A stretch of 64,000 nucleotides of DNA from the NCBI RefSeq assembly GCF_014899185.1, contig NZ_CP045201.1, positions 1,534,501 through 1,598,500 of the forward strand, written 5' to 3'. A program made the position numbers and the translations under genes. Below are positions 461-39,544 of the stretch, one piece after another. The DNA is from Pseudooceanicola spongiae (GTDB lineage: Bacteria; Pseudomonadota; Alphaproteobacteria; Rhodobacterales; Rhodobacteraceae). How positions within the stretch are numbered: the stretch's first letter is position 1; each line of letters begins with the position of its first letter. The notes below the pieces were generated by a model that worked only from the letters and a program-made list of their open reading frames with translations, ran no database searches and was not told the origin of the DNA.

Positions 461-497
461 ACCGTCCGGTTACCGACGGCATACCGACGCAATACCG
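461..497 (-). repeat. 11-bp phased ACCG/CGGT array, copy 1
   Basis: ACCG begins at 461, 472, 483 and 494, exactly 11 bp apart, mostly inside ATACCGAC units. In the direction of the flanking minus-strand genes the unit reads GTCGGTAT. The nearest unit is about 74 bp upstream of the start at 387. Two related arrays lie near 29.6 and 39.5 kb. The spacing puts each unit on about the same face of the helix, which suggests a protein-binding site; the protein is unknown. Confidence 0.7.
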
Positions 498-538
498 ACA
501 GCGCGATTTCCCCCATTCAGCGGCTTGCATCCGCCCCC

Positions 539-2143
539 TCACATCCGGAACAGCCCAAAGCGGGTCTCCGGAATGGGCGCATTCAGCGCCGCACTCAGGC
601 TCAGCGCCAGCACCTCCCGGCTCTTCCTCGGGTCCACGATCCCGTCATCCCAGAGCCGCGCCGACGCATAGAGCGGATGGCTCTGACGCGCGAACATCTC
701 CACGGTCGGACGCTTGAACTCCGCCTCCTCCTGCGCACTCCAGCTGCCCCCGCGCCGCTCGATCCCGTCGCGCTTCACGCTCGCCAGAACCCCCGCCGCC
801 TGTTCGCCGCCCATGACCGAGATCCGCGACGTCGGCCAGGACCACATGAAGCGCGGACTGTAAGCCCTTCCCGACATGCCATAATTCCCAGCCCCGAACG
901 AGCCGCCGACAACCATGGTGATCTTCGGCACCTCTGTTGTCGACACCGCCGTGACCATCTTGGCGCCGTGCCGCGCGATGCCCTCATTCTCGTATTTCCG
1001 CCCGACCATGAAGCCAGTGATGTTCTGCAGGAACACCAGAGGGATCTTTCGCTGACTGCACAGTTCGACGAAATGCGCCCCCTTCTGCGCGGCTTCGCTG
1101 AACAGCACGCCATTGTTGGCGATGATCCCCACCGGCCAGCCATCCAGATGCGCGAAGCCCGTCACCAGAGTCTCGCCAAAGCGTTGTTTAAATTCATCAA
1201 ATCGCGACCCGTCGACGACACGCGCGATCACCTCCCGGATGTCATAGGGCGTCTTCAGATCCGGCGGCACCACGCCGATCAGCTCCTCCGGGTCATAGGC
1301 GGGTGGCTCTGGCGACACCCGCACAGGCCCGCCTGGCCGCACCCGGTTCAACCCCGCCACACAGCGCCGTGCCAGCGCCAGCGCATGGGCGTCATCCTCG
1401 GCCAGATAATCCGCCACACCCGACAGCCGCGTGTGCACATCACCCCCGCCAAGGTCTTCTGCCGTCACGATTTCTCCGGTCGCAGCCTTGACCAGAGGCG
1501 GCCCGGCCAAAAAGATCGTGCCCTGATCCCGCACGATGATCGTCACATCCGACATCGCCGGAACATAGGCCCCGCCAGCGGTACAGGACCCCATGACCAC
1601 CGCGATCTGCGCGATCCCCTTGGCGCTCATCCGCGCCTGATTGTAGAAAATCCGCCCGAAGTGATCGCGATCGGGAAACACCTCGTCCTGATTGGGCAGA
1701 TTGGCCCCGCCGCTGTCGACGAGGTACAGACAGGGCAGATGATTTTCCTCAGCAATTTCCTGCGCCCTGAGGTGTTTCTTCACCGAGATGGGGTAATAGG
1801 TCCCACCCTTCACGGTGGCATCGTTGCACACGATCATCACCTCCTGCCCCGCAACGCGACCGACCCCGGCGATCACACCGCCACAGGGGGCGGCGTTGTC
1901 ATAGAGCCCATGCCCCGCCGTCGCGCCAATCTCCAGAAAGGGCGCGCCGGGGTCGAGCAGCCCCGCCACGCGCTCTCGCGGCAGCATCTTGCCGCGCGAC
2001 ACATGCCGCTCGCGCGCCGCCGCACCGCCGCCCGCTGCGGCCAGTTCCGCCGCGTCCCGCACCACCGAAAGTGCCTGCAGATGCGCCTCGCGGTTGGCCT
2101 TGAATACGTCAGACCCTGTCAGGATCCGCGATTGGATCTTCAT
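539..2143 (-). CDS. mccB: Methylcrotonoyl-CoA carboxylase carboxyltransferase (beta) subunit
   Basis: A 534-residue biotin-dependent acyl-CoA carboxyltransferase, which moves CO2 from carboxybiotin to 3-methylcrotonyl-CoA in leucine breakdown. It has both crotonase-like halves: an N-terminal half with [10 protein letters not shown] and [15 protein letters not shown], and a C-terminal half with [20 protein letters not shown] and the acidic [10 protein letters not shown] loop. [12 protein letters not shown] and the neighbouring ivd gene favour the methylcrotonyl over the propionyl enzyme. The ATG at 2143 is preceded by a GGGGGAAG-type ribosome site. The biotin-carrying alpha subunit is not in the window; it may lie beyond the left edge. 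The gene is separated from the acyl-CoA synthetase by ompW on the opposite strand. Confidence 0.92.
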
Positions 2144-2256
2144 GTCGTCTTCCCCCTCTGCTGCGCCCGTCCCGTCGTCTCAGCCCGGACGGCAAGGCGT
2201 TCATCGCACCATTGGCGTGCCAAAAAACACCCGCTTTTCCAAGTGTCTTCAAAAGC

Positions 2257-2270
2257 TTGACCCAGATCAA
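2257..2270 (+). promoter_or_regulatory. FNR/FnrL-type box upstream of ompW
   Basis: TTGACCCAGATCAA is a full match to the anaerobox TTGAY-N4-RTCAA. It lies 58 bp upstream of the ompW start codon (box end to ATG). FNR activates ompW in enterobacteria and FnrL-type regulators use this box in Rhodobacterales, so oxygen-responsive control of ompW is a reasonable inference. Confidence 0.75.
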
Positions 2271-2328
2271 AGATTTGCCCGGACGAACCAGCCACAGATC
2301 CGCGCGTAAGATTTGGAAAGGCACGACA

Positions 2329-2931
2329 ATGACGATGAAAACTCTGCTGCTCACGGCCACCGCCCTCGTGGCGCTGACGGGCCCGGCTGCAATGGCGCAG
2401 TCCAAGGGCGACGTCACAGTCGGTCTCGGGATTGGCTATGTCGACCCGACGTCCGACAATGGCACGCTCGCCGGCTCGAAGCTGAGCATCGGGTCCGACA
2501 CCCAGCCGACGCTGACCGTGGAATACTTCCTGACTGATACGCTCGGCCTCGAACTGCTGGCCGCGACGCCCTTCACCCATGACCTCAGCCTCGGAGGCAC
2601 CAGGATCGGCACGGTCAAACAACTGCCGCCGACGATCTCGATCAATTACCACTACGCTAATGCCACGGCTTTCACGCCGCTGGTCGGCATCGGGCTGAAC
2701 TACACCACCGCACTGGATGTCAGCTCCCCGCTCGGCAAGGTGACGCTGGAGGACTCCTGGGGCGTCGCCGCGCATCTGGGCGTCGATTACGCCATCACCC
2801 CGACCTCCGCGATCCGCACCGATCTGCGCTGGATCGACATCAATATGGACACCCGGCTCAACGGGGCGCGCATCGGCACGGCCGAGGTCGATCCCGTGAT
2901 CTTCGGGATGTCCTACATCATGACGTTCTGA
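2329..2931 (+). CDS. ompW: OmpW-family outer membrane beta-barrel protein
   Basis: A 200-residue exported protein. A signal peptide of about 23 residues ends in PAAMA. The mature part shows alternating beta-strand patterns and an OmpW-like core (GLGIGYVDPTSDN; TPLVGIGLNYTT; WGVAAHLGVDYAI; DLRWIDINMDTRLNG), ending in an aromatic-terminated barrel strand (FGMSYIMTF). OmpW proteins form eight-stranded barrels with a hydrophobic channel and are linked to passage of small hydrophobic compounds and to anaerobic or stress responses. The ATG at 2329 has GGAAAGG seven bases upstream. The gene lies alone on plus between minus-strand leucine genes, with its own FNR box and terminator. Confidence 0.9.
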   Translation: MTMKTLLLTATALVALTGPAAMAQSKGDVTVGLGIGYVDPTSDNGTLAGSKLSIGSDTQPTLTVEYFLTDTLGLELLAATPFTHDLSLGGTRIGTVKQLPPTISINYHYANATAFTPLVGIGLNYTTALDVSSPLGKVTLEDSWGVAAHLGVDYAITPTSAIRTDLRWIDINMDTRLNGARIGTAEVDPVIFGMSYIMTF

Positions 2932-2971
2932 GGCTTGCGCACCGACGCGCCTCACAACAGGCCAGACATCA

Positions 2972-2998
2972 GGGTGCGCCCGACCGGCGCGCCCTTTT
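2972..2998 (+). terminator. Rho-independent terminator of ompW
   Basis: Stem GGGTGCGCC / GGCGCGCCC (one G-U pair) with loop CGACC, then TTTT. The T-tract is present only for plus-strand transcription, so it should stop ompW but not the opposing acyl-CoA synthetase transcript. Confidence 0.6.
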
Positions 2999-3029
2999 CC
3001 CCGGCTCTCAGACGTCCGCACTCTGCGTC

Positions 3030-4589
3030 TCAGCATGTCTCACTCTCCCGCGCCGCACGCGCCTTCAGCTCCTTGCGGATCACCTTGCCGGTCACCGTCA
3101 TGGGCAGCGCCTCGACAAAGGCAATTTCCCTTGGATACGAATAGCTTGCGAGGCGGTTCTTCACGTAGTCCTGCAACTCCCGCTCGGCCACTTTCACCCC
3201 TGCTTTCAGCACGACATAGGCCTTTACGATCTCGGTGCGCAGCGCATCAGGCTTGCCGACAACGCCCACCGTCGCCACGCAGGGGTGGGTCATCAGGCAG
3301 TCCTCGATCTCGGATGGGCCGATGCGATAGCCAGAGGAGGTGATCACGTCATCCTCGCGCCCCAGAAACCGCAGGAAATCGCCCTCCATCACGCCCCTGT
3401 CCCCCGTCAGCAACCAGTCGCCGCGAAACTTGTCCAACGTCGCCTCGGGTTTGTTCCAGTATTCCAGCATCATGGCGGGTGAGCCCCGGCGAATGGCCAC
3501 ATCGCCTTCGCCTTCGCAGGGCCAGCCGTCCGGGCCGATCACATTGACGTCGAACCCCGGGACCGAGCGCCCGGCGCACCCCGGACGCGCGTCGAACAGC
3601 GCCGCACAGCAAGACACCGCCATATTGCATTCGGTCTGGCCGTAAAATTCGTTGATCGTCAGGCCAAAGGCTTGCCTGCCCCATGCCAGCATTTCGGCCC
3701 CGAGCGTCTCGCCGCCGCTGGCGATGCTGCGCAACCCCTCGATCCCAGCCCCCTCCGCCTTCAGCATCCTGAGGGCGGTCGGCGGGAAAAACACATTCTT
3801 CACAGCGCCTTGGTCAATGATCCTCAGACACTCAGCGACCTCGAACTTCGCCATCCGCGCCGCCACCACGGGCACGCCGAGCGCGAGGCCCGGCATCAAC
3901 ACATCGAACAGCCCGCCGATCCAGGCCCAGTCAGCGGGCGTCCATAGGCAATCCCCGGGCTGCCCCAGCAGATCATGGCTCAGCGCGACGCCGGGCAGAT
4001 GCCCGCTCAGCACCCGGTGGCCATGCAGCGCGCCCTTCGGCTTGCCCGTGGTGCCAGAGGTATAGATCAGCACCCCCGGCTCATCCGCTCCGGTATCCGC
4101 CGTGGAACATCGGCCCGTCGGCAAAGTCGCCGCCTCGGGCACCAGCGCGACCACGTCCAGCGCCGCCAGCATCTGCGCGCCCTCGCCGTCGCTGACCACG
4201 ATGCGCGCGCCGCAATCCTCGACCCGCGCCCGCAGGGCATCTTCGCGGAACAGCTTGAAAAGCGGCACGGAAATCGCCCCCAGCTTCCAGGCCGCGATAT
4301 GCGCCGCCGCGCACCAGGGATCTTGCGAGCGCAACACGCCGACCCGATCCCCCCGCTGCACGCCGCCCTCGGCAAGGGCCAGCGCCAGACGCTCCGCCAT
4401 GTCGCGCAGCGCGGCGTAGGAGACATCCCGCCGCGCCCCCGCCGTCAGGTCGACGATCGCCGTGCGATCCGGGTCACGCTCGGCCCAGCTGTCACAGGCC
4501 TGCGCCGCCATGTTCAGCCGGTCGGGGATCTGCCAGTCGAACGTCCGGTAGATCTCCTCGTATCCCGCGCCGCTGGCCGCAAGGATCAT
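3030..4589 (-). CDS. AMP-forming acyl-CoA synthetase of the leucine/short-chain acid group
   Basis: A 519-residue member of the ANL superfamily that activates a carboxylic acid to its CoA thioester through an acyl-AMP. Visible motifs: P-loop IYTSGTTGKPKGALHGHR, adenine-binding NEFYGQTECN, hinge region LTGDRGVMEGDFLRFLGRED, and the C-terminal catalytic lysine in TVTGKVIRKELK. The start codon overlaps the ivd stop by four bases (ATGA), so the two are translationally coupled. The position suggests a branched short-chain acid such as isovalerate as substrate, but the sequence alone does not fix it; medium-chain acyl-CoA synthetase-like members also look like this. Confidence 0.85.
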   Translation of the reverse strand: MILAASGAGYEEIYRTFDWQIPDRLNMAAQACDSWAERDPDRTAIVDLTAGARRDVSYAALRDMAERLALALAEGGVQRGDRVGVLRSQDPWCAAAHIAAWKLGAISVPLFKLFREDALRARVEDCGARIVVSDGEGAQMLAALDVVALVPEAATLPTGRCSTADTGADEPGVLIYTSGTTGKPKGALHGHRVLSGHLPGVALSHDLLGQPGDCLWTPADWAWIGGLFDVLMPGLALGVPVVAARMAKFEVAECLRIIDQGAVKNVFFPPTALRMLKAEGAGIEGLRSIASGGETLGAEMLAWGRQAFGLTINEFYGQTECNMAVSCCAALFDARPGCAGRSVPGFDVNVIGPDGWPCEGEGDVAIRRGSPAMMLEYWNKPEATLDKFRGDWLLTGDRGVMEGDFLRFLGREDDVITSSGYRIGPSEIEDCLMTHPCVATVGVVGKPDALRTEIVKAYVVLKAGVKVAERELQDYVKNRLASYSYPREIAFVEALPMTVTGKVIRKELKARAARESETC

Positions 4590-5749
4590 CGCATGGCCGC
4601 CATCAGCTCACGCCCTACCAGCATCCGTCGGATTTCGCTGGTGCCGGCGCCGATCTCCATCAGCTTGGCATCCCGGAACAGCCGCGCGACAGGCGCATCC
4701 GCCAGAAAGCCCGCCCCGCCCATGGCCTGCACCGCCTGATGCGCCACGGTCATCGCCTCTTCGGAGGCAAACAGCACGCAGGCCGCCGCATCGGCCCGCG
4801 TCACCTGACCCCGATCACAGGCGCGCGCGACCTCATAGACATAGGCACGGGCGGCGTTCATCTTGGTGTACATATCGGCAATCTTGCCCTGCATCAGCTG
4901 AAAGTCCCCGATGCTCTGGCCGAACTGCTTGCGCTCGACCATATAGGGCATGACCTCGTCCAGACAGGCCGCCATGATGCCCGTGCCAATGCCCGACAGC
5001 ACCACACGCTCATAGTCGAGGCCCGACATCAGCACGCGCACGCCCTTGCCCTCTTCGCCGAGGATATTCTCGAAGGGCACATCAACATCGTCAAAGATCA
5101 GCTCGGCCGTGTTCGAGCCGCGCATCCCCAGCTTGTCGAAATGCGCACTGGTCGAGAAACCTTTCATCGTCTTTTCAATAAGAAAGGCGGTCATCCCCTT
5201 GCTGCCCGCCTCCGGGTCGGTCTTGGCATAGACGACCAGAGTGTCAGCATCGGGGCCGTTGGTGATCCAGTACTTGTTGCCGTTCAGGGTGTAGCGGTCG
5301 TTCTTCTTCTCGGCCCGCAGGCTCATGCTGACCACGTCGGATCCCGCCCCGGCCTCGCTCATCGCAAGCGCGCCGACATGACTGCCCGAGACGAGGCCCG
5401 GCAGATATTTCTGCTTCTGCGCCTCGGTGCCGTTCAGGTGGATCTGGTTCACGCAAAGGTTGGAATGCGCCCCGTAGGACAGGCTGACACTGGCCGAGGC
5501 CCGCGCGATCTCCTCCACCGCGATGACATGCGCGAGATACCCCATACCGGCGCCGCCGTACTCCTCGGCCACCGTGACACCCAGCAGCCCCATCTCGCCC
5601 ATCTCGCGCCAGAGCGCGGGGGGAAAGGCATTGTTGGCGTCGATTTCGGCAGCCATCGGGCGCACCCGGTCCTGGGCCCAACGGTGGACCGCCTCGCGCA
5701 GTGCATTGACGTCTTCGCCCAGATCGAAACGCATCGAAGCGGTGAACAT
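4586..5749 (-). CDS. ivd: Isovaleryl-CoA dehydrogenase
   Basis: A 387-residue FAD-dependent acyl-CoA dehydrogenase that oxidises isovaleryl-CoA to 3-methylcrotonyl-CoA and passes electrons to ETF. It carries EEYGGAGMGYLAHVIAVEEI, the FAD/substrate signature AMSEAGAGSDVVSM, YWITNGPDAD, GLDYERVVLSG (the Glu at the helix-G position used as catalytic base in isovaleryl-CoA dehydrogenases) and the C-terminal QAMGGAGF. I chose the ATG at 5749 because GGAGGAGC lies just upstream and the length matches the family; a much longer upstream reading frame is non-coding. It is first in the group, followed by the overlapping acyl-CoA synthetase, and has a promoter with a palindrome next to it. Confidence 0.93.
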   Translation of the reverse strand: MFTASMRFDLGEDVNALREAVHRWAQDRVRPMAAEIDANNAFPPALWREMGEMGLLGVTVAEEYGGAGMGYLAHVIAVEEIARASASVSLSYGAHSNLCVNQIHLNGTEAQKQKYLPGLVSGSHVGALAMSEAGAGSDVVSMSLRAEKKNDRYTLNGNKYWITNGPDADTLVVYAKTDPEAGSKGMTAFLIEKTMKGFSTSAHFDKLGMRGSNTAELIFDDVDVPFENILGEEGKGVRVLMSGLDYERVVLSGIGTGIMAACLDEVMPYMVERKQFGQSIGDFQLMQGKIADMYTKMNAARAYVYEVARACDRGQVTRADAAACVLFASEEAMTVAHQAVQAMGGAGFLADAPVARLFRDAKLMEIGAGTSEIRRMLVGRELMAAMR

Positions 5750-5770
5750 CGGGCTCCTCCTTCCCTTTAT

Positions 5771-5814
5771 TGAACGCTTGTTCACACTAAGGCACGACAC
5801 CGCCCATCGGTCAA
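5771..5814 (-). promoter_or_regulatory. ivd promoter with TetR-like palindromic operator
   Basis: On minus: -35-like TTGACC (5814-5809), 18-bp spacer, -10-like TTAGTG (5790-5785), then the inverted repeat TGAACGCTTGTTCA (5771-5784) immediately after the -10, about 22 bp upstream of the ivd start. Five-base arms around a four-base centre and this location fit a repressor operator, for example a TetR-family regulator of acyl-CoA catabolism. No regulator gene is adjacent. Confidence 0.55.
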
Positions 5815-5893
5815 GCAAATGGCGTATCGGGCAGGAACCCAGACTGTCGCGCCGCGTTAGGTCTTCAATCACAGCCACCTGAAGGAGGATGTC

Positions 5894-6373
5894 GTGAAAG
5901 ACTTCGCAAACGAAATGACCAAACAGTTCTGGAAACGCATTGAAGACGTGCGGGCCGGGATGCTTCACACCGACGACACGCGCATCGTCCCGATGAGCGG
6001 CTATCCGGACTCGGATGAAAATGCGATCTGGTTCATCACCGCCGATGGCGCAGATGCCTATGAGGCCGCTGTGGCGGGTCGCGAGACCTCGTTCATCGTG
6101 TCGGATGCCTCCGCCAAGATCTATGCTCGCGTGCACGGCTCTCTGTCGGCGGTCAACGATCAGGCCAAGCTCGACGAACTCTGGAGCCCGGTCGCAAGTG
6201 CTTGGTTCAAGGATGGGCGCGAGGACAGCTCCGTCCGTCTGGTGCGCCTGACGCCGAAGAAGGCCGAAGTCTGGCTGACCGACGGCGGCGCAGGTTTCCT
6301 CTATGAAGTCGCCAAGGCCAATCTGACCGAACAGACGGCAGATGCAGGCGAACACGGGGTCATCACGTTTTGA
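5894..6373 (+). CDS. Pyridoxamine 5'-phosphate oxidase-like general stress protein
   Basis: A 159-residue split-barrel flavin-binding-type protein of the general stress group. Recognisable core: NAIWFITADGADAYEAAV, ETSFIVSDASAKIYARVHG, then a WSPVASAWFKDG loop and VRLVRLTPKKAEVWL. Such proteins bind FMN, FAD or F420-like cofactors, but the function here is not known. The GTG at 5894 is chosen because GAAGGAGG sits six bases upstream. It is divergent from ivd. The stop overlaps the TTG start proposed for creA. Confidence 0.8.
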   Translation: MKDFANEMTKQFWKRIEDVRAGMLHTDDTRIVPMSGYPDSDENAIWFITADGADAYEAAVAGRETSFIVSDASAKIYARVHGSLSAVNDQAKLDELWSPVASAWFKDGREDSSVRLVRLTPKKAEVWLTDGGAGFLYEVAKANLTEQTADAGEHGVITF

Positions 6374-6846
6374 AACCGCTGAGGCTGATGCGTGTCGCCC
6401 CCCTGATCTGCGTCGGCCTCAGCGCCTTCGCCTCGTCCGCCGCTGCAGAGCAGGTGGGCGAGGTCGGCGTCGACTGGACCGGCAACGATGTCGTGATCGA
6501 GGCGATTGCCGATCCCAAGGTCGAAGGTGTCACCTGCCATGTTGCCTATTTCAGTCGCAGCCTGATCGACCGCGTCTCCAAGGGGAACTGGTTCGAGGAT
6601 CCCTCCAACGCCTCCATCGCCTGCCGCCAGACCGGCCCGATCAAGATCGGCGATATCGACCGGGACGAGTCGGGTGAGGACGTGTTTCGCACCTCCCGTT
6701 CGATCATTCTGAAATCGCTGCGGGTCAAGCGGATCTGGGACGAAAAGAACCAGACGCTGATCTACCTCGCCCATGCGGCCGAGCTGACGGATGGCTCCGC
6801 CAAGCTGTCGATCTCGACCGTGCCGCTCTATCAGGCAGGCCACTGA
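6370..6846 (+). CDS. creA: CreA family exported protein
   Basis: A 158-residue secreted protein with an N-terminal signal peptide ending in SSAAA and the CreA core: VGEVGVDWTGNDVVIEAIADP, GVTCHVAYFSRS, a double-Cys arrangement with IACRQTGPI, and RSIILKSLRVKRIWD. The family is widespread in proteobacteria and has no settled function. The TTG start at 6370 overlaps the previous stop by four bases; an ATG at 6388 would give a shorter signal peptide and is a real alternative. It probably forms an operon with the preceding gene. Confidence 0.8.
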   Translation: MKPLRLMRVAPLICVGLSAFASSAAAEQVGEVGVDWTGNDVVIEAIADPKVEGVTCHVAYFSRSLIDRVSKGNWFEDPSNASIACRQTGPIKIGDIDRDESGEDVFRTSRSIILKSLRVKRIWDEKNQTLIYLAHAAELTDGSAKLSISTVPLYQAGH

Positions 6847-6879
6847 TCGCCTTTCCGGGTGCGCCACTGGCAGGGCGCG

Positions 6880-6902
6880 CCCCTTCGCCCACGGCGAAGG
6901 GG
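6880..6902. terminator. Symmetrical hairpin between convergent genes
   Basis: A ten-base perfect stem CCCCTTCGCC / GGCGAAGGGG with a CAC loop, followed by a smaller GCGCC-GTCA-GGCGC stem near 6917-6930. There is no T-tract. The position between the convergent creA and aminotransferase genes suggests a shared terminator or RNA 3' end. Confidence 0.45.
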
Positions 6903-6939
6903 ACAGGCAAGGGAATGCGCCGTCAGGCGCTCCGCTGGA

Positions 6940-28190: not shown

Positions 28191-29468
28191 CTAATGCAGC
28201 TTCTTGCGAATGCTGCGGATCACCCACCAGACCGCCAGCACCACAAAGGGCGTGATCATCGCCAGCAGCATCCCCTTGCTCAGATGCGTGGCGTCCGCCA
28301 GCGGGTAGGACAGATAGCCCACCAGCGACACCGCGTAATAGCTGATCGCCACCACCGACAGCCCCTCGACCGTCTGTTGCAGGCGCAGCTGCGCATCGGC
28401 CCGCCGGTCCATGCTCTCCAGCAGCGCCTGGTTCTGCGCGCTGCGCTCGACATCGACACGCGTGCGCAGCAACTCGCCCGCGCGGATCGCCCGCGGTGAC
28501 ATCGCCGCCATCCGCGCCTCGCTGGCGCGCACGGTGCGCATCGCCGGATCGTAGCGGCGCATCATGAACTCGACAAAGGTCTGACGCCCGTGAAAGCGTT
28601 CCTCGCGCAGCATCGCCACACGTTCGCGCAGGATCGCCTCATAGGCCTTGGTGGCGGCCAGCCGATAGGCCGCCTTCGCCGCCATATCCTCCACCTCCGC
28701 CGAGACACTCAGCAGGCTGCGCAGCGTCTCCTCCGAGCGGGTCGCGCCATCGCGCATTGCCCCGATCAGCCGTGTCAGTTCAGCATCCAGCCGCACCATT
28801 TCCGGGTCCAGTTCGCGCACCCGCGCAAGGCCCAGCATCGACATGGCACGATAGGTCTCGATTTCGCACAGCCGCTGCACCACCCGCCCGATCCGCCGTG
28901 TGCCGATCCCTTCGTTGGTGAAGACCGAAAACCGCAGATGCCCCGCCGGGTCGATCCGGAAATCCCCCGCGATGATGGCATCCCGCTCAATCGCATGCGA
29001 GATCGCCAGACTTTCGCCGACGAACCAGTCCTCGATCTGGCGTTGCACCGTCGCCTCGCCCGCGCTCGGCTCGACCCGCAACAGCACCGAGGTGATACGT
29101 TTGCCCGGGGCCTGCGCCAGCCAGTTGGGCGGAAACACATCGAACTCCGCCGGATCAAAGGCGCGCGGCAGGATCGAGTTGGTGAAGACCGTATAGGTGA
29201 CGAACTCGGTATGGCTCTCCCACTTCAGCATGTGCCGCCCGATCTCGCCCGACCAATGGGTCGCGCCCGGTTGCGGATGCGGCGCGCCGTGCCGGTCCAG
29301 CAGATCGATCAGATGCGCCCGCTCGGCCTCGCGGTCGCGCGCGGCGTCGGGGCCATCGGATTTCAGCGCCAGAAAGGCAACGCTGCAGGGCGAGTTCAGC
29401 GTCGGAAAGGGCCGCGCGTGCAGCTCATTGACCAGAGGATAGCGCAGAGGGTGATCTTGCAGGGGCAT
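28191..29468 (-). CDS. DUF3422 family membrane protein
   Basis: 425 residues. The N-terminus (YPLVNELHARPFPTLNSPC, a repeated feature of the family) leads into a soluble domain and an alpha-helical region. Two predicted membrane helices close the protein (LSVVAISYYAVSLVGYL and GMLLAMITPFVVLAVWW), followed by a basic tail RSIRKKLH. It is widespread in alpha- and betaproteobacteria, without known function; the layout is akin to CorA-like helical proteins with C-terminal anchors, though I see no GMN motif. One of the three phased arrays lies about 155 bp upstream. Confidence 0.85.
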   Translation of the reverse strand: MPLQDHPLRYPLVNELHARPFPTLNSPCSVAFLALKSDGPDAARDREAERAHLIDLLDRHGAPHPQPGATHWSGEIGRHMLKWESHTEFVTYTVFTNSILPRAFDPAEFDVFPPNWLAQAPGKRITSVLLRVEPSAGEATVQRQIEDWFVGESLAISHAIERDAIIAGDFRIDPAGHLRFSVFTNEGIGTRRIGRVVQRLCEIETYRAMSMLGLARVRELDPEMVRLDAELTRLIGAMRDGATRSEETLRSLLSVSAEVEDMAAKAAYRLAATKAYEAILRERVAMLREERFHGRQTFVEFMMRRYDPAMRTVRASEARMAAMSPRAIRAGELLRTRVDVERSAQNQALLESMDRRADAQLRLQQTVEGLSVVAISYYAVSLVGYLSYPLADATHLSKGMLLAMITPFVVLAVWWVIRSIRKKLH

Positions 29469-29622
29469 GGGGCAGCAGTCCGTCTGAAAGGCGTTCGCAA
29501 TGCTGTTAGACCCGAGAGCCGCCCCTGAAAAGGCAATTATTAATATTTTTCAACATGTTAGCGGAATACATTGGTATACCGCTGCCACAAAGGGCACCGC
29601 CAGAGATTTGCGCCAAAAACGC

Positions 29623-29670
29623 ACCGTTCAGTTACCGTTCAAATACCGACCGGATACCGACCGGATACCG
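29623..29670 (-). repeat. 11-bp phased ACCG/CGGT array, copy 2
   Basis: ACCG begins at 29623, 29634, 29645, 29656 and 29667: five units exactly 11 bp apart, the last three inside ATACCGAC. The left flank GCGCCAAAAACGCACCG is shared with copy 3 (as its reverse complement). In the direction of the flanking minus-strand genes the array follows the pntB terminator and precedes the DUF3422 gene. Confidence 0.75.
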
Positions 29671-29731
29671 ACATCCCGATCTGGCGGTTTCAGGCCCCCC
29701 ACCGTCAGAGCCGAGACCTGCCCCAGACGCA

Positions 29732-29782: not shown

Positions 29783-31216
29783 TCAGGAGATCTTGGTCAG
29801 CAGCTCATCCAGCGATTTCTTGGCGTCGCCGTAGAACATGCGGGTATTTTCCTTGTAGAACAACGGGTTCTCGATCCCGGAATAGCCCGTGCCCTGGCCC
29901 CGTTTGGAGACGATGACCTGCTTGGCCTTCCAGCACTCCAACACCGGCATGCCAGCGATGGGGCTGTTGGGATCTTCCTGCGCCGCAGGGTTCACGATGT
30001 CGTTCGACCCGATCACGATCGCCACGTCGGTGGAGGGGAAATCTTCATTGATTTCATCCATTTCCAAGACGATATCGTAGGGAACCTTGGCCTCGGCCAG
30101 CAGCACGTTCATGTGCCCAGGCAGACGCCCGGCGACCGGGTGAATGGCGAAACGCACGTTCTTGCCCTTGGCCCGCAGCTTCTTCGTCAGCTCGGAGACC
30201 GACTGCTGCGCCTGCGCCACCGCCATGCCGTAGCCCGGAATGATGATGATGCTGTCGGCCTCGTCCAGCGCGGCTGCAACACCGTCGGCGTCGATGGCAA
30301 TCTGTTCGCCCTCGACCTCCATCGCCGGGCCCGAGGTGCCGCCGAAGCCGCCCAGAATGACCGAAACAAAGCTCCGGTTCATCGCTTTGCACATGATATA
30401 GCTGAGGATGGCACCCGACGACCCAACCAGTGCCCCGACCACGATCAGCAAATCGTTCGACATCGAAAAGCCGATCGCCGCTGCCGCCCAGCCGGAATAG
30501 CTGTTGAGCATGGAAACCACGACAGGCATGTCCGCGCCGCCGATACCCATGATCAGGTGATAGCCGACAAACAGCGCCGCCAGTGTCATGATGAACAGCG
30601 GGAAAAAGCCACCGGTGTTGAAGTACCAGATCAGGCAGAGAACCGAGAGCACAGCTGCAGCCGCGTTCAGCATATGACCGCCCGGCAGTTTCGTCGCCTT
30701 GGTGTTCACCTTGCCCGCCAGCTTGCCATAGGCAACCACCGAACCGGTGAACGTCACGGCACCGATGAAGATACCAAGGAACAGCTCAACCCGAAGAATG
30801 TTCTGCTCGACCAGTGTCTTATGCGCCAGAAGCTCGGCGAAGCCATGCAGGCCGACACGCGCCGCCGGGTCCATCGCCAGCACATGGTTCAGCTCAAAAT
30901 GCGCGTTGAACCCGACGAACACCGCCGCCAGACCGACCAGCGAGTGCATCGCCGCGACCAGTTGCGGCATCTCTGTCATCTGCACACGGGTGGCGACGAA
31001 AAAGCCGATGATGCCGCCCGCCGCGATCAGGATGACCGAGAGCAGCCAGAGGCCCGATCCCGGACCGATGAGTGTTGCAAAAACCGCAAGCGCCATGCCC
31101 GCGATCCCGTACCAGACCGCTCTTTTCGCGCTCTCCTGCCCCGAAAGGCCGCCGAGCGCGAGGATGAAGAGGACTGCCGCGACCACATAGGCCGCTGTCG
31201 TGAAGCCGAATTCCAT
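29783..31216 (-). CDS. pntB: Proton-translocating NAD(P) transhydrogenase, beta subunit
   Basis: A 477-residue protein with about eight or nine N-terminal membrane helices (from [19 protein letters not shown]) and a C-terminal NADP-binding domain III. Domain III shows the NADP site in [35 protein letters not shown], and [25 protein letters not shown]. It couples hydride transfer from NADH to NADP with proton entry, supplying NADPH. AAGGAGG lies before the ATG, 13 bp after the pntA stop. Confidence 0.95.
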
Positions 31217-32804: not shown

Positions 32805-32841
32805 CTGTGTCGTCCCCCTTTTGAACAACTGGCTAAAATTT

Positions 32842-32862: not shown

Positions 32863-33320
32863 CCTCCTAGTCAGCATCGCGCAATATTATTGCGTTTCGG
32901 CTGTAGTGGATTTGCCTGCTATGACCTGCCGAGTCAAACCCATCGATGTGTGTTTTGCGCCTATGTTGCGAATTCTGTTCGAATATTTCGCCAGATGCGC
33001 GCGCCTCCGGAGCAGATGAAGCGTTTGTCCCGCGCGCAAATCAAGCGCTTATTGCATGGTAGCGCCAACACGGCTGTCCGTTTCAAAACGCCCTGTGCAG
33101 CCCAGCAACAGCACCGGCACTCCGAGATCGAAATCCGCTGACGAGCTCGGCCTTGCGCACTGATCTTGCCGCGCACCATCCAATCCTGTCCATTCGACCA
33201 TATCAACCCGGCGGCACAATACCAGCGCCATCACCTGAACACCGACGCGGCATCGTCATTGGGCCTCCGCACTGCACGGACTTGCACCGCACAGACAAGC
33301 GGCTATGGTTCACCCGTATT

Positions 33321-33337
33321 GCGGAATGATATTCCGC
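33321..33337. promoter_or_regulatory. Palindromic operator upstream of SDR gene
   Basis: GCGGAATGATATTCCGC has perfect seven-base arms around GAT. It ends 22 bp before the ATG of the SDR gene, directly ahead of its ribosome site, where a repressor would block transcription. No regulator gene is next to it. Confidence 0.55.
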
Positions 33338-33359
33338 TAAAATCTGGGAGGAGTGAGGA

Positions 33360-34109
33360 ATGCTGCAGGGCAAACACGCCATCGTTACAGGCGGCGGCAC
33401 CGGCATCGGTCTGGCCATTGCGCGGTCACTGGCAGACGCCGGCGCGCAAGTCACCATTACAGGCCGCCGCGCCGACGTGCTGAAAGAGGTGGCAGAGCCG
33501 GGCATGTTCGCCCTGCCGATGGACGTCAGCGACGAGGCCTCGGTGCGTGAGGGGATGGCAAGCGCCGTCGCGGCCCGTGGCCCGATCCAGATCTGCGTGG
33601 CGAATGCCGGCATTGCCGAGGGGCGCAAGCTGCAAAAGACCTCCTCAGAGTTCTGGCGCAAGATCATGGCGACCAATCTGGATGGCTGCTTTTACACGGT
33701 GCGCGAAAGCCTGGAATCGATGACCACGACCGACTGGGGGCGTGTGATCGCCATATCCTCGATCGCCGGATTGCGCGGTGCTCCGGGGGCTGGCGCCTAT
33801 GCCGCCTCGAAACACGGGGTGATCGGCATGATGCGTTCGTTCGCGGAGGATTTTCTGGGCGGACCGATTACCTTCAATTCGATCTGTCCGGGCTATGTCG
33901 ATACGCCCATCGTGACGCGCAATACCGATGCCATCTCCAAACGTGCGGGCGTGTCTGAAGAGGAGGCGCGCAACATGATGATCAACATGAACCGCCACAA
34001 GCGCCTGATCTCACCTGAGGAAGTTGCTGCAACCGCGCTCTGGCTGTGCAACCCGCTGATCGAAAGCGTGAATGGTACGGAAATCCGGATCGCAGGCGGC
34101 CAGCTCTAG
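33360..34109 (+). CDS. Short-chain dehydrogenase/reductase
   Basis: A 249-residue classical SDR. TGGGTGIG is the cofactor-binding Gly motif, NAG is at CVANAGIAEG, the catalytic Ser is in IAISSIAG, and YAASK carries the Tyr and Lys. ITGRRADV after the second strand contains basic residues that favour NADP(H). The C-terminus (NGTEIRIAGGQL) resembles 3-oxoacyl-CoA/ACP reductase-type members, but the substrate is unknown. The ATG at 33360 follows GGGAGGAG. The stop shares CTAG with the stop of the convergent gene. Confidence 0.87.
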   Translation: MLQGKHAIVTGGGTGIGLAIARSLADAGAQVTITGRRADVLKEVAEPGMFALPMDVSDEASVREGMASAVAARGPIQICVANAGIAEGRKLQKTSSEFWRKIMATNLDGCFYTVRESLESMTTTDWGRVIAISSIAGLRGAPGAGAYAASKHGVIGMMRSFAEDFLGGPITFNSICPGYVDTPIVTRNTDAISKRAGVSEEEARNMMINMNRHKRLISPEEVAATALWLCNPLIESVNGTEIRIAGGQL

Positions 34110-34885
34110 GCGGACCTAAGGACAGGGATCGCCCGACGCCCGGCATGCCAGGCGCGGGCGGCCTCGCCCAGACCTTCGAAAAGAGGGCGCGATACGGGAT
34201 CATGGGCCGCGTTGTATTCCGGATGCCACTGCACGGCGAGGGTATAGCCCGGCGCCCCCTCGACATAGGCGGCCTCAGGCGTGCCATCGGGCGCCCGGCC
34301 ATCGATTACAAAGCGCTTCCCCGGCGTGATGACGCCCTGACCGTGTAGCGTATTCGTCATGACCTCAGACGCGCCCATCACACGGTGGAACACCCCGCCC
34401 TCGGTAAAGGTCACCTTGTGGCGCAAGGCGAATTTTTCCTCAATCGTGCCATCCGGGGGCATACGGTGGTTCAAACGCCCCGGCAAATTGCGGATCTCAG
34501 GGTGCAAGGTCGACCCCATGGCAACCGCAACCTCTTGAAAGCCACGGCAAATTCCAAGAAACGGCTGGCCCCGTTCAACGCAGGCACGCACAAGTGGCAG
34601 AGTGATCGCATCGCGCGCCCTGTCAAAAGTGCCATGGGCCTCTGTCTCTTCATCGCCATATTCCGAGGGGTGCACATTGGGGCGACCGCCCGTCAGCACG
34701 AAGGCATCGAAGGTCTCAAGAAGCTCCTCCACCGACACCAGACCGGGGTCTGCCGGGATCAAGGCAGGCAGACCGCCCGAGACATTCGCCACCGCTTCGG
34801 AGTTCATAACCCCGCCAGCGTGGGTTCTGTAGCTGCTGTCAACAACGTGAAGATTGGTGATGATGCCGATAAGGGGTCTTGTCAT
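34106..34885 (-). CDS. Gamma-glutamyl-GABA hydrolase-like class I amidotransferase
   Basis: A 259-residue protein of the PuuD/peptidase C26 group. The nucleophile is the Cys of LGICRGFQEV; the His-Glu pair is in VQWHPEYN; the oxyanion region is VLTGGRPNVHPSEYG. PuuD hydrolyses gamma-glutamyl-GABA in putrescine breakdown, but no other Puu genes are here. It could act on another gamma-glutamyl compound. It is convergent with the SDR with overlapping stops. Confidence 0.82.
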   Translation of the reverse strand: MTRPLIGIITNLHVVDSSYRTHAGGVMNSEAVANVSGGLPALIPADPGLVSVEELLETFDAFVLTGGRPNVHPSEYGDEETEAHGTFDRARDAITLPLVRACVERGQPFLGICRGFQEVAVAMGSTLHPEIRNLPGRLNHRMPPDGTIEEKFALRHKVTFTEGGVFHRVMGASEVMTNTLHGQGVITPGKRFVIDGRAPDGTPEAAYVEGAPGYTLAVQWHPEYNAAHDPVSRPLFEGLGEAARAWHAGRRAIPVLRSA

Positions 34886-35061
34886 GCTACGCCTCTAAGC
34901 TTGATCACTAACGTAATAGCGCAAGTCAGCAAATAAAACGGAAATCACTGTGCAGAGATGCACTGCCACCTTGCGCCGCTACGATTTCGGGCAGAACCAC
35001 CGTGGCTTACCCAGGCTAAAACGTGCATCCTTCCGCCGAATAACTACCATAGATTGCATCC

Positions 35062-35082
35062 GACCTTCCGGTGGGGAAGGTC
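35062..35082 (+). promoter_or_regulatory. Hairpin in the pepN leader
   Basis: GACCTTCC / GGAAGGTC, eight-base perfect stem with loop GGTGG, about 80 bp before the pepN start. The rest of the 276-bp gap (34886-35161) shows nothing I can assign. Confidence 0.35.
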
Positions 35083-35161
35083 CCTCTTGCGCTGCGCTTG
35101 CCCTTGCAATCCGGCCCGTGGCGGTGAAACTCGCGCGCAACACGACATGAGGACGAGTGAC

Positions 35162-37726
35162 ATGAAAGACGCAGCCCCCACCCAGTCAGGTCAGACGATC
35201 TATCTGAAGGACTACACCGCCCCCGGCTGGCTGGTCGAAGAGGTGCATCTGACCTTCCGTCTTGCGCCCGAAGCGACCCGCGTGCTGAGCCGGATCCGCT
35301 TCACCCCCAACCCCGATGCGGACCAGGGCCAGTTCTTTCTGCATGGCGAGCAGCTCAAACTCATCTCCGCCAGCATTGATGGCACCCCCGTCGCCCCCGA
35401 CATCAGTGAAGAGGGCCTGACCTGCGCCGTGCCCGACGGCGCCTTCACCTGGGAGGCGGAGGTCGAGATTGCACCGGCGAAAAACTTCGCTCTCGAAGGG
35501 CTTTACATGTCGAGCGGCATGTATTGCACCCAGTGCGAGGCCGAAGGCTTCCGCAAGATCACCTACTACCCCGACCGCCCGGATGTGATGAGCGTCTTCA
35601 CCGTGCGCATCGAGGGCGACACCCCCGTCAAGCTGTCCAACGGCAACCCCGTGGCCAGTGGCGAGGGCTGGGCCGAATGGCATGATCCCTGGCCAAAACC
35701 GGCCTATCTGTTCGCGCTGGTCGCCGGAGACCTGATCAACCATCCTGACCGCTTCACCACCATGTCCGGCAAAGATGTCGAGCTGAACATCTGGGTCCGC
35801 CCCGGCGACGAGGGCAAATGCGCCTTCGGCATGGAGGCGCTGAAGAAGTCGATGAAGTGGGATGAGGAGGTCTATGGGCGCGAATACGACCTCGATATCT
35901 TCAACATCGTCGCGGTCGACGATTTCAACATGGGGGCGATGGAGAACAAGGGGCTGAACATCTTCAACTCCTCCTGCGTCCTCGCCAGCCCGGAAACCAG
36001 CACGGACGCGAACTTCGAGCGGATCGAGGCGATCATCGCGCATGAGTATTTCCACAACTGGACTGGCAACCGCATCACCTGCCGCGACTGGTTCCAGCTG
36101 TGCCTGAAAGAGGGGCTAACGGTCTATCGCGACAGCCAGTTCACCTCGGACATGCGCTCAGCTCCCGTCAAACGGATTTCGGATGTGATCGACCTGAGGG
36201 CGCGCCAGTTCCGTGAGGATAACGGCCCGCTGGCGCATCCGGTGCGGCCTGAAAGCTTTCAGGAAATCAACAACTTCTACACGGCGACTGTCTATGAGAA
36301 GGGCGCCGAGGTCATCGGCATGCTCAAACGGTTGGTCGGGGATGAGGCCTATTCCAAGGCGCTGGATCTGTACTTTGAACGTCACGATGGCCAAGCCTGC
36401 ACCATCGAGGACTGGCTTGCTGTGTTCCAGGAGTCGACGGGCCGCGATCTGAGCCAGTTCAAGCGCTGGTATTCTCAGGCAGGCACCCCGCGTCTGCACG
36501 TCAGCGAAACCTGGGAGGATGGCACCTTCACCCTGCACTTCCGTCAGGAGACGCCCCCGACCCCCGGCCAACCCGACAAGGCCCCGCAGGTCCTGCCGAT
36601 TGCCGTCGGTCTGATCGGCCCGAACGGCGACGAAGTTCAGGAAACCACGCTTCTTGAGATGACCGAGGCCGAGCAGAGCTTCAGCTTCTCCGGTCTCGGC
36701 GCGCGGCCGGTCCCGTCGATCCTGCGGGAATTTTCGGCCCCTGTGATCCTGCACCGCGACACCGACAATGCCGAACGCGCCTTTCTGCTGGCCCATGACA
36801 CAGACCCCTACAACCGCTGGGAGGCGGGGAGAACCCTTGCGAAACAAGCACTTCTGCGGATGATCGCAGATGGGGCCGAAGCGGACGCAGGCTATCTGGG
36901 CGCGCTGGCGACCCTGCTGGCGGATGAAACGCTGGACCCGGCCTTCCGTGCTCTGGCAATGGCGCTGCCGTCCGAGGATGATCTGGCGCAGACGCTGCAT
37001 GAGTCCGGCCACGTGCCTGACCCGCAGCGGATCTGGGAAAAGCGGCAAGAGATGCGCAGTGCCATGGCCGAAGCAATGCCGGATCTGCTGGCGAACCTCT
37101 ACGCGGCCCATCAGGTGCCCGGCGAGTATCAGCCCGATGCCGGTCCCGCAGCGGCCCGCTCCCTGGCCAACTCCGCGCTGGCTCTGCTGTCGCGGCGCGA
37201 CGGGGGCGATCGGGCGCGGGCCCAGTTCGCTGAGGCCGACAACATGACCCAGCAACTGGCCGCGCTGAGCTGTCTGTTGAGTATTGAGGACGGTCAAACC
37301 GAGTTGAAAGCTTTTTATGATCAATGGCATGATGATCGTCTGGTCATGGACAAATGGTTCTCGCTTCAGGTCGCTTATGCCCGCCCCGATCAGATGGCCG
37401 CCACGACCGAGCGTCTGGCGAACCACCTCGACTTCGACATGAAGAACCCCAACCGGTTCCGCGCCACCTTCGGCGCCCTGACGATGAGCCCGGCTGGTTT
37501 CCACCATGCCTCTGGCGCGGGATACAAGCTGCTGGCGGACTGGCTGATCAAGCTCGACCCGCTGAACCCGCAGACCACGGCGCGGGTGTGCAGCGCCTTC
37601 CAGAGCTGGACACGCTATGATGCAGACCGTCAGGCGATGATGCGCGAGGCGCTGGAACGGATGGCGGCGCAGCCGAAACTCAGCCCCGACACCCGCGAAA
37701 TGGTGACGCGGATCCTGAATGCCTGA
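35162..37726 (+). CDS. pepN: Aminopeptidase N (M1 family)
   Basis: An 854-residue zinc aminopeptidase. Exopeptidase signature GAMENKGLNIFN; zinc site HEYFHNWTGNRITCRDWFQLCLKEGLTVYRD (HExxH with HEYFH, third ligand Glu 18 residues on, written here as positions near 300-322 of the protein). Substrate-stalling Tyr is in NNFYTATVYEKG. The C-terminal helical domain runs to RILNA. The ATG at 35162 has GAGG about ten bases upstream; an ATG 15 bases earlier is possible. Upstream frame extension is non-coding. It degrades cytosolic peptides. Confidence 0.94.
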   Translation: MKDAAPTQSGQTIYLKDYTAPGWLVEEVHLTFRLAPEATRVLSRIRFTPNPDADQGQFFLHGEQLKLISASIDGTPVAPDISEEGLTCAVPDGAFTWEAEVEIAPAKNFALEGLYMSSGMYCTQCEAEGFRKITYYPDRPDVMSVFTVRIEGDTPVKLSNGNPVASGEGWAEWHDPWPKPAYLFALVAGDLINHPDRFTTMSGKDVELNIWVRPGDEGKCAFGMEALKKSMKWDEEVYGREYDLDIFNIVAVDDFNMGAMENKGLNIFNSSCVLASPETSTDANFERIEAIIAHEYFHNWTGNRITCRDWFQLCLKEGLTVYRDSQFTSDMRSAPVKRISDVIDLRARQFREDNGPLAHPVRPESFQEINNFYTATVYEKGAEVIGMLKRLVGDEAYSKALDLYFERHDGQACTIEDWLAVFQESTGRDLSQFKRWYSQAGTPRLHVSETWEDGTFTLHFRQETPPTPGQPDKAPQVLPIAVGLIGPNGDEVQETTLLEMTEAEQSFSFSGLGARPVPSILREFSAPVILHRDTDNAERAFLLAHDTDPYNRWEAGRTLAKQALLRMIADGAEADAGYLGALATLLADETLDPAFRALAMALPSEDDLAQTLHESGHVPDPQRIWEKRQEMRSAMAEAMPDLLANLYAAHQVPGEYQPDAGPAAARSLANSALALLSRRDGGDRARAQFAEADNMTQQLAALSCLLSIEDGQTELKAFYDQWHDDRLVMDKWFSLQVAYARPDQMAATTERLANHLDFDMKNPNRFRATFGALTMSPAGFHHASGAGYKLLADWLIKLDPLNPQTTARVCSAFQSWTRYDADRQAMMREALERMAAQPKLSPDTREMVTRILNA

Positions 37727-37858
37727 AACGTTGCGCATCACCGGGGGCGACCCGGTGGTGCGCTCACTCTTTCAGGGCCACGACGAACAGAGCCTCTTGC
37801 CCCCCGAAACGGCCTGTCCTAGAACCCGGGACCAAGCCATTCCCGGAAAGGACCGACC

Positions 37859-39373
37859 ATGCTGGACCTCACGTACGAGACCCCGAAACCCAAGGTGATC
37901 GCCGGTGCGAAACACGATTGGGAGCTGGTCATCGGCATGGAGGTCCATGCGCAGGTCGCCTCGAAGGCGAAACTGTTCTCGGGCGGCTCTACCCTGTTCG
38001 GCGCTGAACCCAACTCCAACGTTGCCTTTGTCGACGCGGCGATGCCGGGGATGTTGCCCGTCATCAATGAATTCTGTGTTGAGCAGGCCGTGCGCACCGG
38101 ACTGGGCCTGAATGCCGAGATCAACCTGTTCTCTGCCTTCGACCGCAAGAACTACTTCTACCCCGACCTGCCGCAGGGTTACCAGATCAGCCAGCTCTAC
38201 CATCCCATTGTCGGCGAAGGAGAAATTCTGGTCGACATGGCGCCCGGCATTGCGCGTCTGGTGCGGGTGGAACGCATCCACCTGGAGCAGGACGCCGGTA
38301 AATCGATCCACGACATGGACCCGAACATGTCCTTCGTCGACCTCAACCGGACCGGCGTGGCGCTGATGGAAATCGTCAGCCGCCCCGATATCCGCGGCCC
38401 GGAAGAAGCCGCCGCCTATATGGTCAAACTGCGCCAGATCCTGCGCTATCTCGGCACCTGCGACGGCAACATGCAGAGCGGCAGCATGCGGGCTGACGTC
38501 AACGTTTCCGTATGTCTGCCAGGGGCTTACGAGAAATTTCGCGAGACCGGCGACTTCGGCCACCTCGGCACGCGATGCGAGCTGAAGAACATGAACTCCA
38601 TGCGCTTCATTCAGGCCGCGATTGATGTGGAGGCGCGGCGTCAGATCGCGATCCTGGAGGCCGGAGGCAAGATCGATCAGGAAACCCGCCTGTATGATCC
38701 CGAGAAAAACGAGACCCGCTCCATGCGGAGCAAGGAAGAAGCGCATGATTACCGCTACTTCCCCGATCCCGACCTGCTGCCACTCGAGATCGAGCAGGCT
38801 TGGGTCGATGATATCAAGGCCAGCCTTCCGGAGCTGCCCGACGCGAAAAAACTGCGCTTCATCAAGGACTTCGGTCTGAGCGAATATGACGCAAGCGTGC
38901 TGACCGCCGAAGTGCCGAACGCCGTCTTCTTCGAGGAGGTCGCCGAGGCCTGCAAGGATGGCAAACTGGCCGCGAACTGGGTCATCAACGAGCTGTTTGG
39001 CCGTCTGAAGAAAGACGACGCCGACATCGAAAACAGCCCTGTCAGCCCGGCGCAACTGGCTGGCATCATCGCCCTGATCAAAGGCGATGTGATCAGCGGC
39101 AAGATCGCCAAGGACGTCTTTGAGATCGTCTATAGCGAAGGCGGCGATCCCGCTGTTATAGTTGAGGAAAAAGGCCTCAAGCAGGTCACCGATACCGGCG
39201 CCATCGAGGCGGCTGTGGACGAGATCATTGCGGCCAATCCCGACCAGGTCGAGAAGGCAAAGCAGAACCCGAAGCTGGCGGGCTGGTTCGTCGGTCAGGT
39301 GATGAAATCCACCGGCGGCAAGGCCAATCCCAAGGCCGTGAACGATCTTGTGGCGGCCAAGCTGGGGCTCTGA
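37859..39373 (+). CDS. gatB: Asp-tRNA(Asn)/Glu-tRNA(Gln) amidotransferase subunit B
   Basis: 504 residues. The N-terminal cradle kinase domain has [19 protein letters not shown] and the ligand segment [31 protein letters not shown] and [19 protein letters not shown] are signatures. The C-terminal YqeY tail domain binds tRNA ([25 protein letters not shown]). GatCAB makes Gln-tRNA and Asn-tRNA by transamidation. gatA and gatC are not adjacent. GGAAAGGA precedes the ATG. Confidence 0.96.
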
Positions 39374-39415
39374 TCTGACACCATCGGCGTGCTGAGCGTC
39401 GATTGAAGAGATAGA

Positions 39416-39446
39416 CGGGCAGAGGTGCAAACCTCTGCCCGTTTTT
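39416..39446 (+). terminator. Rho-independent terminator of gatB
   Basis: Eleven-base perfect stem CGGGCAGAGGT / ACCTCTGCCCG with a GCAA tetraloop and TTTTT. It lies 43 bp after the gatB stop. Confidence 0.9.
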
Positions 39447-39505
39447 GCATGCCACGGATCGCTCTGACCCGGCGGACCCAAGCACCAAAACCGCGAAATC
39501 GTGAT

Positions 39506-39544
39506 GTCGGTATTCCGTCGGTATCTGAACGGTATCCGGGCGGT
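39506..39544 (+). repeat. 11-bp phased ACCG/CGGT array, copy 3
   Basis: CGGT begins at 39508, 39519, 39530 and 39541, exactly 11 bp apart, the first two inside GTCGGTAT. The downstream flank GGTGCGTTTTTGGCGC is the reverse complement of the left flank of copy 2. It follows the gatB terminator and ends 75 bp before the thioesterase start. Confidence 0.75.

Follow-up and report, generated by a model that had tools for sequence, protein, structure and literature searches.

Oriented arrays of CGGT units at 11-bp steps in Pseudooceanicola spongiae and its relatives, a family of candidate polar sites possibly tied to replication or recombination

The chromosome of Pseudooceanicola spongiae carries more than 100 copies of a short intergenic array in which CGGT (ACCG on the opposite strand) is repeated at steps of exactly 11 bp. 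Three of these arrays lie in the window analyzed here, by which we mean the whole stretch of 64,000 nucleotides at positions 1,534,501 to 1,598,500 of contig NZ_CP045201.1 (assembly GCF_014899185.1). Left and right are given below along the direction in which the array reads CGGT. Approaching an array from the left, the mean GC skew of the CGGT strand increases over the last 2.5 kb or so, and on the right side it remains elevated over some 15 kb. We tentatively propose, with a probability of about 0.4, that all the arrays form a single family of polar sites, bound by a protein and linked to replication or recombination, most likely sites of polar pause, restart or recombination entry.

The arrays of the window are located at positions 461-497 (four units), 29,623-29,670 (five units) and 39,508-39,544 (four units, with ACCG on the minus strand). 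An earlier reading made from the letters of the window, referred to here as the sequence-only reading, had described these coordinates, unit counts and the exact 11-bp step, all of which were borne out. A pattern of three successive units had seven overlapping matches in the 64-kb window and none in 100 shuffles, which shows that the arrays are not due to chance. In the host genome (4.37 Mb, one contig), the same triplet pattern produced 229 overlapping matches compared to 5 for the reversed control. Patterns designed for the array ends identified 121 + 4 places, i.e., approximately 125 arrays (one of them counted twice), 64 in the forward and 61 in the reverse orientation. The positions of 103 arrays up to 3.82 Mb were listed and about 21 further places lie beyond that point; 101 of the 103, all except 2928325 and 3074551, were retrieved or belong to the window. 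The set of 100 arrays used below excludes one identical rrn copy, and the strand-orientation counts and the averaged skew use 101 arrays under a different rule for duplicates.

Alignment of the 100 host arrays showed a single module. Four CGGT units were found in 83 of them, three in 16 and five only in the array of the window mentioned above; at the next place on the right, half of the three-unit arrays (8 of 16) read CAGT. The logo included A/T tracts near -29, -19 and -10, GTCGGTAT at 0 and 11, RWCGGTAW at 22, RACGGTGCGA as the fourth unit and another A/T tract at +40 to +44, and no position beyond about -30 to +47 was strongly conserved across all 100 arrays. The sequences GTTAA/TTAAC were found at -33 to -30 and +59 to +62 on both sides of 17 host arrays, on the left side only in 2 and on the right side only in 2. 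Among 112 arrays from named relatives, a GTTAAC-type site was present on the left in 46 and on the right, where the boundary reads GGTTAACRGRGCGYGCG, in 33. With few strays, the positions of these sites differ by 11-bp steps (about -33, -22 and -44 on the left; about +59, +48 and +69 on the right), and therefore the module is in helical register. The sequence-only reading considered that drift off the 11-bp spacing in relatives would speak against it. Where a further CGGT followed one of 120 matched triplets in the relatives, its distance was exactly 11 bp for 78 of the 89 on the right and for 30 of the 39 on the left, a partial check because the search patterns themselves presuppose 11 bp. 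The proposal that the units occupy one face of the helix and are bound cooperatively by an oligomer is in good agreement with the four units of 83 arrays and with the phased A/T tracts. The companion proposal, promoters sharing one regulator, was not supported.

That companion proposal was based on the three arrays of the window, which do precede start codons at the distances reported, 74 bp (nitronate monooxygenase, NMO, domain), 155 bp (DUF3422) and 75 bp (thioesterase), with CGGT running along both flanking genes in all three cases. Direct 11-bp repeats would also suit proteins of the OmpR/PhoB type or of the excisionase type. However, the orientation with respect to the genes varies across the genome, which is what the sequence-only reading had named as evidence against itself. 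In the CGGT orientation, 30 of the 100 host arrays have both neighboring genes pointing left, 30 lie between convergent genes, 18 have both genes pointing right, 13 lie between divergent genes, and the other 9 are inside a called frame (5) or have no called neighbor (4). A set of 143 gaps without an array comprised 19 convergent, 78 tandem and 46 divergent ones, and in comparison the arrays were more frequent in convergent gaps and less frequent in divergent gaps (p = 1.7e-4); the gene calls came from a simple codon-usage script rather than from a standard gene finder. The preference is thus for 3′-intergenic places, including those behind three copies of an rRNA operon end, where the distance from the 5S gene to the array is about 115 bp in each case. 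All three arrays of the window belong to the class in which both genes point right, a class with only 18 members among the 91 arrays for which both neighbors could be called. This explains why a promoter pattern was seen, and the sample provided by the window is misleading in this respect. Considering also that there are about 125 copies, some of them behind 5S rRNA genes, we find it highly improbable that the arrays are operators of one regulator upstream of promoters.

The arrays are oriented along the G-rich strand. For 97 of 101 host arrays and 99 of 112 arrays of the named relatives, the strand that reads CGGT was the one locally richer in G, and, with local GC skew as a proxy, this corresponds to an orientation along the leading strand like that of the FtsK-orienting polar sequences (KOPS). 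After correction for the coding strand at third codon positions the proportions were 91/99 and 89/107, and when only sites with an absolute skew above 0.1 were considered they were 60/61 and 70/74 (host and relatives, respectively). As controls, the G-rich strand carried 19 of 33 chance CGGT pairs at step 11 in the host and 6 of 14 in the independent genome G269, as well as 48-69% of the CGGT pairs at steps of 10, 12 and 13.

The orientation is compatible with polar anchors that organize the chromosome. These would be bound by a protein of the nucleoid, a translocase or a segregation protein that requires sites oriented along the replichore, by a logic like that of KOPS. In such a case the skew would be a bystander of the direction of replication, with local flips originated by inversions. 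The spacing of the arrays fits this idea, since it is more even than random (mean of 36.7 kb, coefficient of variation of 0.68 vs 0.99, calculated from 103 positions), as do the 3′-intergenic locations and the existence of runs in a single orientation: of 13 places listed in G269, all 10 forward ones are at 1.13-2.26 Mb. However, the skewed tracts showed general G-richness only, and no single polar oligomer of the KOPS kind stood out in them. Furthermore, a constant replication skew predicts that both sides of an array are equal, while the observed mean skew takes a step and peaks locally at the array. We consider the anchors unlikely.

The step was observed at several distances. In the relatives, the corrected skew to the left of the arrays was 0.10 at -8 to -6 kb, 0.06 at -5 to -3 kb and 0.27 at -120 to -60 bp, and to the right it was 0.11-0.22 as far as 8 kb. 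At 1-2.5 kb from the host arrays, the right side exceeded the left side in 70 of 97 comparisons of raw skew (p = 1.5e-6) and in 63 of 83 after correction for genes (p = 1.2e-5). At 1.5-4 kb from the arrays of the relatives, the corresponding results were 34/44 (p = 2.4e-5) and 24/40 (p = 0.005). When the comparison was extended to 20 kb in each direction in ten host arrays, one of which (1824047) was left out because only one side could be used, the corrected skew was higher on the right in nine of nine (p = 0.004). On the left, beyond 2.5 kb, the bin means were 0.00-0.06, and on the right they were 0.07-0.22 over the first 17.5 kb. Ten arrays of G269 had corrected skews of 0.10-0.17 far to the left, 0.27 at -2.5 to 0 kb, 0.32 at 0 to 2.5 kb and 0.19-0.29 up to +15 kb, followed by 0.09-0.15. 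GC skew serves to read the direction of replication in bacteria, and here its mean takes a step at a short oriented site that recurs every 37 kb or so. Therefore, something bound at this site seems to start or redirect a strand-asymmetric DNA metabolism.

Several arrays occupy orthologous places. An array with the same orientation is located at the 3′ end of gatB in the host, G679 and G692, and at the 3′ end of pntB in the host and G679. Array-neighboring genes formed 29 clusters with members from two or more loci; side and strand are conserved in 23 of these clusters but not in the other 6, although some of the pairs may come from near relatives. The effect of an array on the skew was assessed at host array 1463487 by comparing matched genes of the host and other genomes. 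G692 has an array at about the same place and in the same orientation, while the remaining genomes lack one in the stretch examined. For four genes the mean corrected skew was 0.222 in the host, 0.122 in G692 and 0.038 in 18 others (standard deviation, sd, of 0.035, maximum of 0.101), and for six genes it was 0.263, 0.164 and 0.075 (12 others, sd of 0.048). The direction of these differences is the expected one if arrays cause the skew.

The conservation of these places is difficult to explain if the arrays are copies of a selfish element with no function for the host, dispersed by insertion at forks in a fixed orientation and maintained in 3′ gaps where they do no harm. The sporadic distribution, the uneven copy numbers and the location behind genes would be accounted for by such an element. 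Nonetheless, the flanks outside the short module do not align in the logo, and the long flanks that are shared between arrays were those of the rrn copies and of one 1.65-kb inverted duplication (at host positions 3304067 and 3532181, 94% identical) that carries the end of an aminotransferase-like gene together with its array. In addition, insertion alone does not create a skew step, and no transposase was noticed in analyses that did not include a systematic search for one. We consider a selfish element improbable.

Within the family, 18 of 295 genomes had the TACCG triplet pattern, as did 5 of 385 genomes of the class, three of which, including the host, belong to the host's family; the copy numbers were very uneven. 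A scan of named genomes yielded at least 80 array loci in genera that include Roseovarius, Shimia and Salinihabitans, all of which we take to be Rhodobacterales. A search for two GTTAAC sites located 84-90 bases apart, which matched 71 of 295 genomes, in many cases by chance, revealed that other genera have other units at the 11-bp step inside the same frame. The cores found were GTCGGCAT (G142), GTCGGAC, in some cases with GTATGAC (G064), GTATGAC (G146), ATCGGAC (G168), GTGCATC (G232) and others. Of 20 loci with other cores, chosen by eye among the matches of the GTTAAC pair, 14 showed an 11-bp signal at the pair. When the same 20 loci were scanned over their whole stretches, period 11 (22 matches) was exceeded by periods 9 (64) and 12 (81), and periods 10, 13 and 14 had 4, 7 and 2 matches. 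A boundary motif trained on the relatives with CGGT agreed with the orientation deduced from the core in 12 of 17 of these loci, and the local skew was positive in 13 of 17 when oriented by the core (p = 0.009; the three loci without a core orientation were left out) and in 14 of 20 when oriented by the boundary motif.

A degenerate pattern (GTMKG, three times) was then applied to 30 chosen genomes, and in several of them it revealed such arrays throughout the genome. Overlapping matches numbered 142 in G142, 107 in G064, 209 in G692, 129 in G679, 208 in G282, 88 in G269, 68 in G242 and 57 in G217, compared to 0-3 for the controls. Three genomes of the host's genus (G192, G675 and G681) had 0-2 matches, and G095 and G003 were little above the controls. 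The host itself had only 39 because its later units differ, and G168, G232 and G284 had none because their units do not fit the pattern. G146 had 55, for which the control is invalid since the unit of this genome reads alike backwards. Some arrays combine different units, GTATGAC and GTCGGAC in G064 and G146, and GTCGGCAT with GTCGGTAT in G286, where a GGGAGGAGG stretch also replaces a unit. These mixed arrays may represent a core change in progress. G010, selected as a negative control, had 14 matches (1 in its control) formed by GTCGGG/GTAGGG units, suggesting one more core. In G145 the TACCG triplet pattern had 0 matches and its reversed control, GCCAT triplets with an 11-bp step, had 37, which could correspond to another type of array or to a coding repeat. 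A strong second 11-bp repeat with GCAGATGGCTT-like units was present at positions 146-190 of locus L273 (G131), away from the GTTAAC pair.

To account for these observations, we hypothesize that a head-to-tail protein oligomer of four subunits or domains would occupy one face of the DNA and bend or wrap it. The bound complex would function together with replication that proceeds along the CGGT direction, and its most likely role would be that of a point of polar pause, restart or recombination entry. Resection or exposure of single strands on the left, together with a non-standard DNA synthesis on the right, could then generate the skew, and the protein and its specificity would change together along the lineages. 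The short left shoulder and the long right tract are as expected for a polar fork pause followed by restart, or for a one-ended recombination entry. In a bolder version, which we regard as unlikely and speculative, the arrays would be places where DNA synthesis that depends on recombination and runs in one direction enters in a programmed manner. This process would shape strand asymmetry in domains of tens of kb, beside the replication from oriC to terC, and a fast-changing specificity would rewrite more than 100 sites per genome between genera. If this were true, it would be a bacterial counterpart of hotspot turnover of the PRDM9 type. One frame with differing units across genera provides a natural experiment in which a DNA-binding protein and more than 100 sites would change together.

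Several observations weigh against the interpretation of the arrays as replication or recombination sites. At 0.3-1.5 kb the relatives did not show a difference between left and right, and the difference in the host was limited to the raw skew (64/100, p = 0.006), the corrected value being 51/95 (p = 0.08). One of the nine host arrays compared over 20 kb was negative on both sides. In G269 the right side exceeded the left in just 7 of 10 arrays (p = 0.11), and the skew to the right of array 1012516 of this genome was negative. In a pair of arrays that face each other at a distance of 19 kb, each one had its own skew sign in front, a situation that is hard to square with a single fork direction. 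A G-richer chance pair, GCGG, also favored the G-rich strand (84/122 in the host, 45/54 in G269), and composition can therefore give part of the strand bias, although the bias of chance CGGT pairs is well below that of the arrays. The comparison of orthologues showed no difference at gatB and pntB, and in the six-gene set a genome without an array in the stretch examined, G690, reached 0.170 compared to 0.164 for G692. Since only 18 of 295 genomes match the CGGT core, the site is not essential in the family. Finally, a binding protein was not found: gene families enriched near arrays, and proteins whose internal repeats would allow them to read four units, were sought, with nothing convincing, in sequences that covered at most about one fifth of the host genome.

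The one-sided tract of about 15 kb could also arise if transfer or amplification ran to the right from a start point, either a pac-like site for the terminase of a phage or a gene transfer agent (GTA), or an iteron-type unidirectional origin. The frame of about 99 bp would presumably suit a wrap. Matches to a 15-base pattern were found in at least 120 stretches of viral contigs and matches to the GTATGAC pattern in 6; chance probably accounts for many of these, and two of those examined had an informative gene context. In L342 a long 11-bp CGGTA array with CGGTAACTGTT-like units, at 2348-2563, lies between the genes for the terminase large subunit and the portal, where it is possibly a packaging site. 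In L330 an array at 4573 lies inside a gene for a DnaD-like helicase loader and looks like an origin with iterons. A long array with an 11-bp period and CGGTAACTGTT-like units was also seen at 5124-5372 of L334, and L323, L377 and L383 have 11-bp arrays inside open frames. The host genome had one match to PF03237, the terminase family searched, and this match adjoins a small open reading frame (L427:1062-1406, 114 amino acids) that by its position is a putative GTA small terminase (TerS) and in which no obvious helix-turn-helix was recognized by eye. An excerpt of PMC6854486 describes the TerS of the Rhodobacter capsulatus GTA (RcGTA) as devoid of a DNA-binding domain and gives no GTA binding site as known. 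The two observations together weaken the GTA form of this explanation, and the search with this one terminase family gave no support for a GTA pac site. A packaging or amplification start is, on balance, fairly improbable.

Known regulators were considered as binders and rejected. The box of alphaproteobacterial LexA proteins (SOS response), GTTC-N7-GTTC, was found in 34 of the 100 host arrays. The CtrA box, TTAA-N7-TTAA, was found within 80 bp of none of the 100; single GTTAAC-type sites flank 17 of them on both sides. In the case of MraZ, no 11-bp repeat was detected in the 420 bp preceding the mraZ frame in the 12 usable loci out of 13 (the frame picked in G692 was not mraZ). An array of G269 (contig C1, 554226) is located about 0.7 kb before the mraZ match at 554966-555391, an arrangement seen in no other mraZ locus scanned, and this array is also near a putative RNase P RNA region. 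The CenR motif, TGA-N8-TGA as an excerpt of PMC9275681 gives it, was present on either strand in just 20 of the 100 arrays.

Within the window, Pfam supports the NMO, DUF3422, PNTB, GatB and thioesterase assignments of the genes next to the arrays. The module of the first array spans 453-527 on the minus strand, with the A/T-tract head reaching 527 and the tail 453, and is flanked by a carboxyltransferase gene (539-2143) and the NMO-domain gene (1-387), both on the minus strand. The second module (29,615-29,700) is also on the minus strand, between pntB (29,783-31,216, minus), which is followed by a terminator-like hairpin, and the DUF3422 gene (28,191-29,468, minus, start at 29,468). The third (39,478-39,552) is on the plus strand between gatB (37,859-39,373) and the thioesterase gene (39,619-40,086, start at 39,619). 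The shared flank that had been reported, GCGCCAAAAACGCACC, was confirmed in the second and third arrays. The plus-strand GC skew was negative from 1 to 32,000 (-0.05 to -0.21 per 2 kb, with one bin of -0.01), a region that includes the first two arrays with CGGT on the minus strand. From 36,000 to 60,000, around and to the right of the third array, it was near zero (-0.02 to +0.06 per 2 kb), and it was negative again at 60-64 kb. The skew effect at the third array is weak.

No description of such arrays was found in the titles or abstract openings of the open-licence papers listed by the searches, and no known kind of element was found whose defining features the arrays all show; the underlying process is putative. 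According to an excerpt of PMC7498355, the Apl protein of phage 186 binds direct repeats 10-11 bp apart cooperatively and bends the DNA, a layout like that of the arrays; however, Apl acts at two phage loci and no such protein was tied to the arrays. Boxes of the OmpR/PhoB family are likewise tandem direct repeats about one turn apart, but the CenR motif is scarce in the arrays and these are not placed as promoter elements would be. With the PRDM9 hotspots the arrays share a fast exchange of the recognized sequence at many sites, although PRDM9 is a eukaryotic zinc-finger methyltransferase and nothing like it was found here. Polar fork barriers such as Tus-Ter, RTS1 and the rDNA barriers are also polar and in some cases located behind rRNA genes, and long restart tracts are known in yeast; the arrays, at which any fork arrest is putative, differ in that no barrier protein was found for them and in that more than 100 copies are distributed around the chromosome. 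The REP, BIME and RIB-RIP elements (REP, repetitive extragenic palindromic; BIME, bacterial interspersed mosaic element) of enterobacteria are also intergenic and numerous, and they too are found at 3′ ends, in many cases between convergent genes, but these are palindromes, while the units of the arrays are direct repeats, strongly oriented and with a changing core, so that an assignment to REP/BIME was rejected. KOPS share with the arrays an orientation along the G-rich, leading strand throughout the genome. However, they are single 8-bp motifs, while the element described here is a module of about 75 bp with four half-sites, repeated about every 37 kb and marked by a step of the skew at the site.

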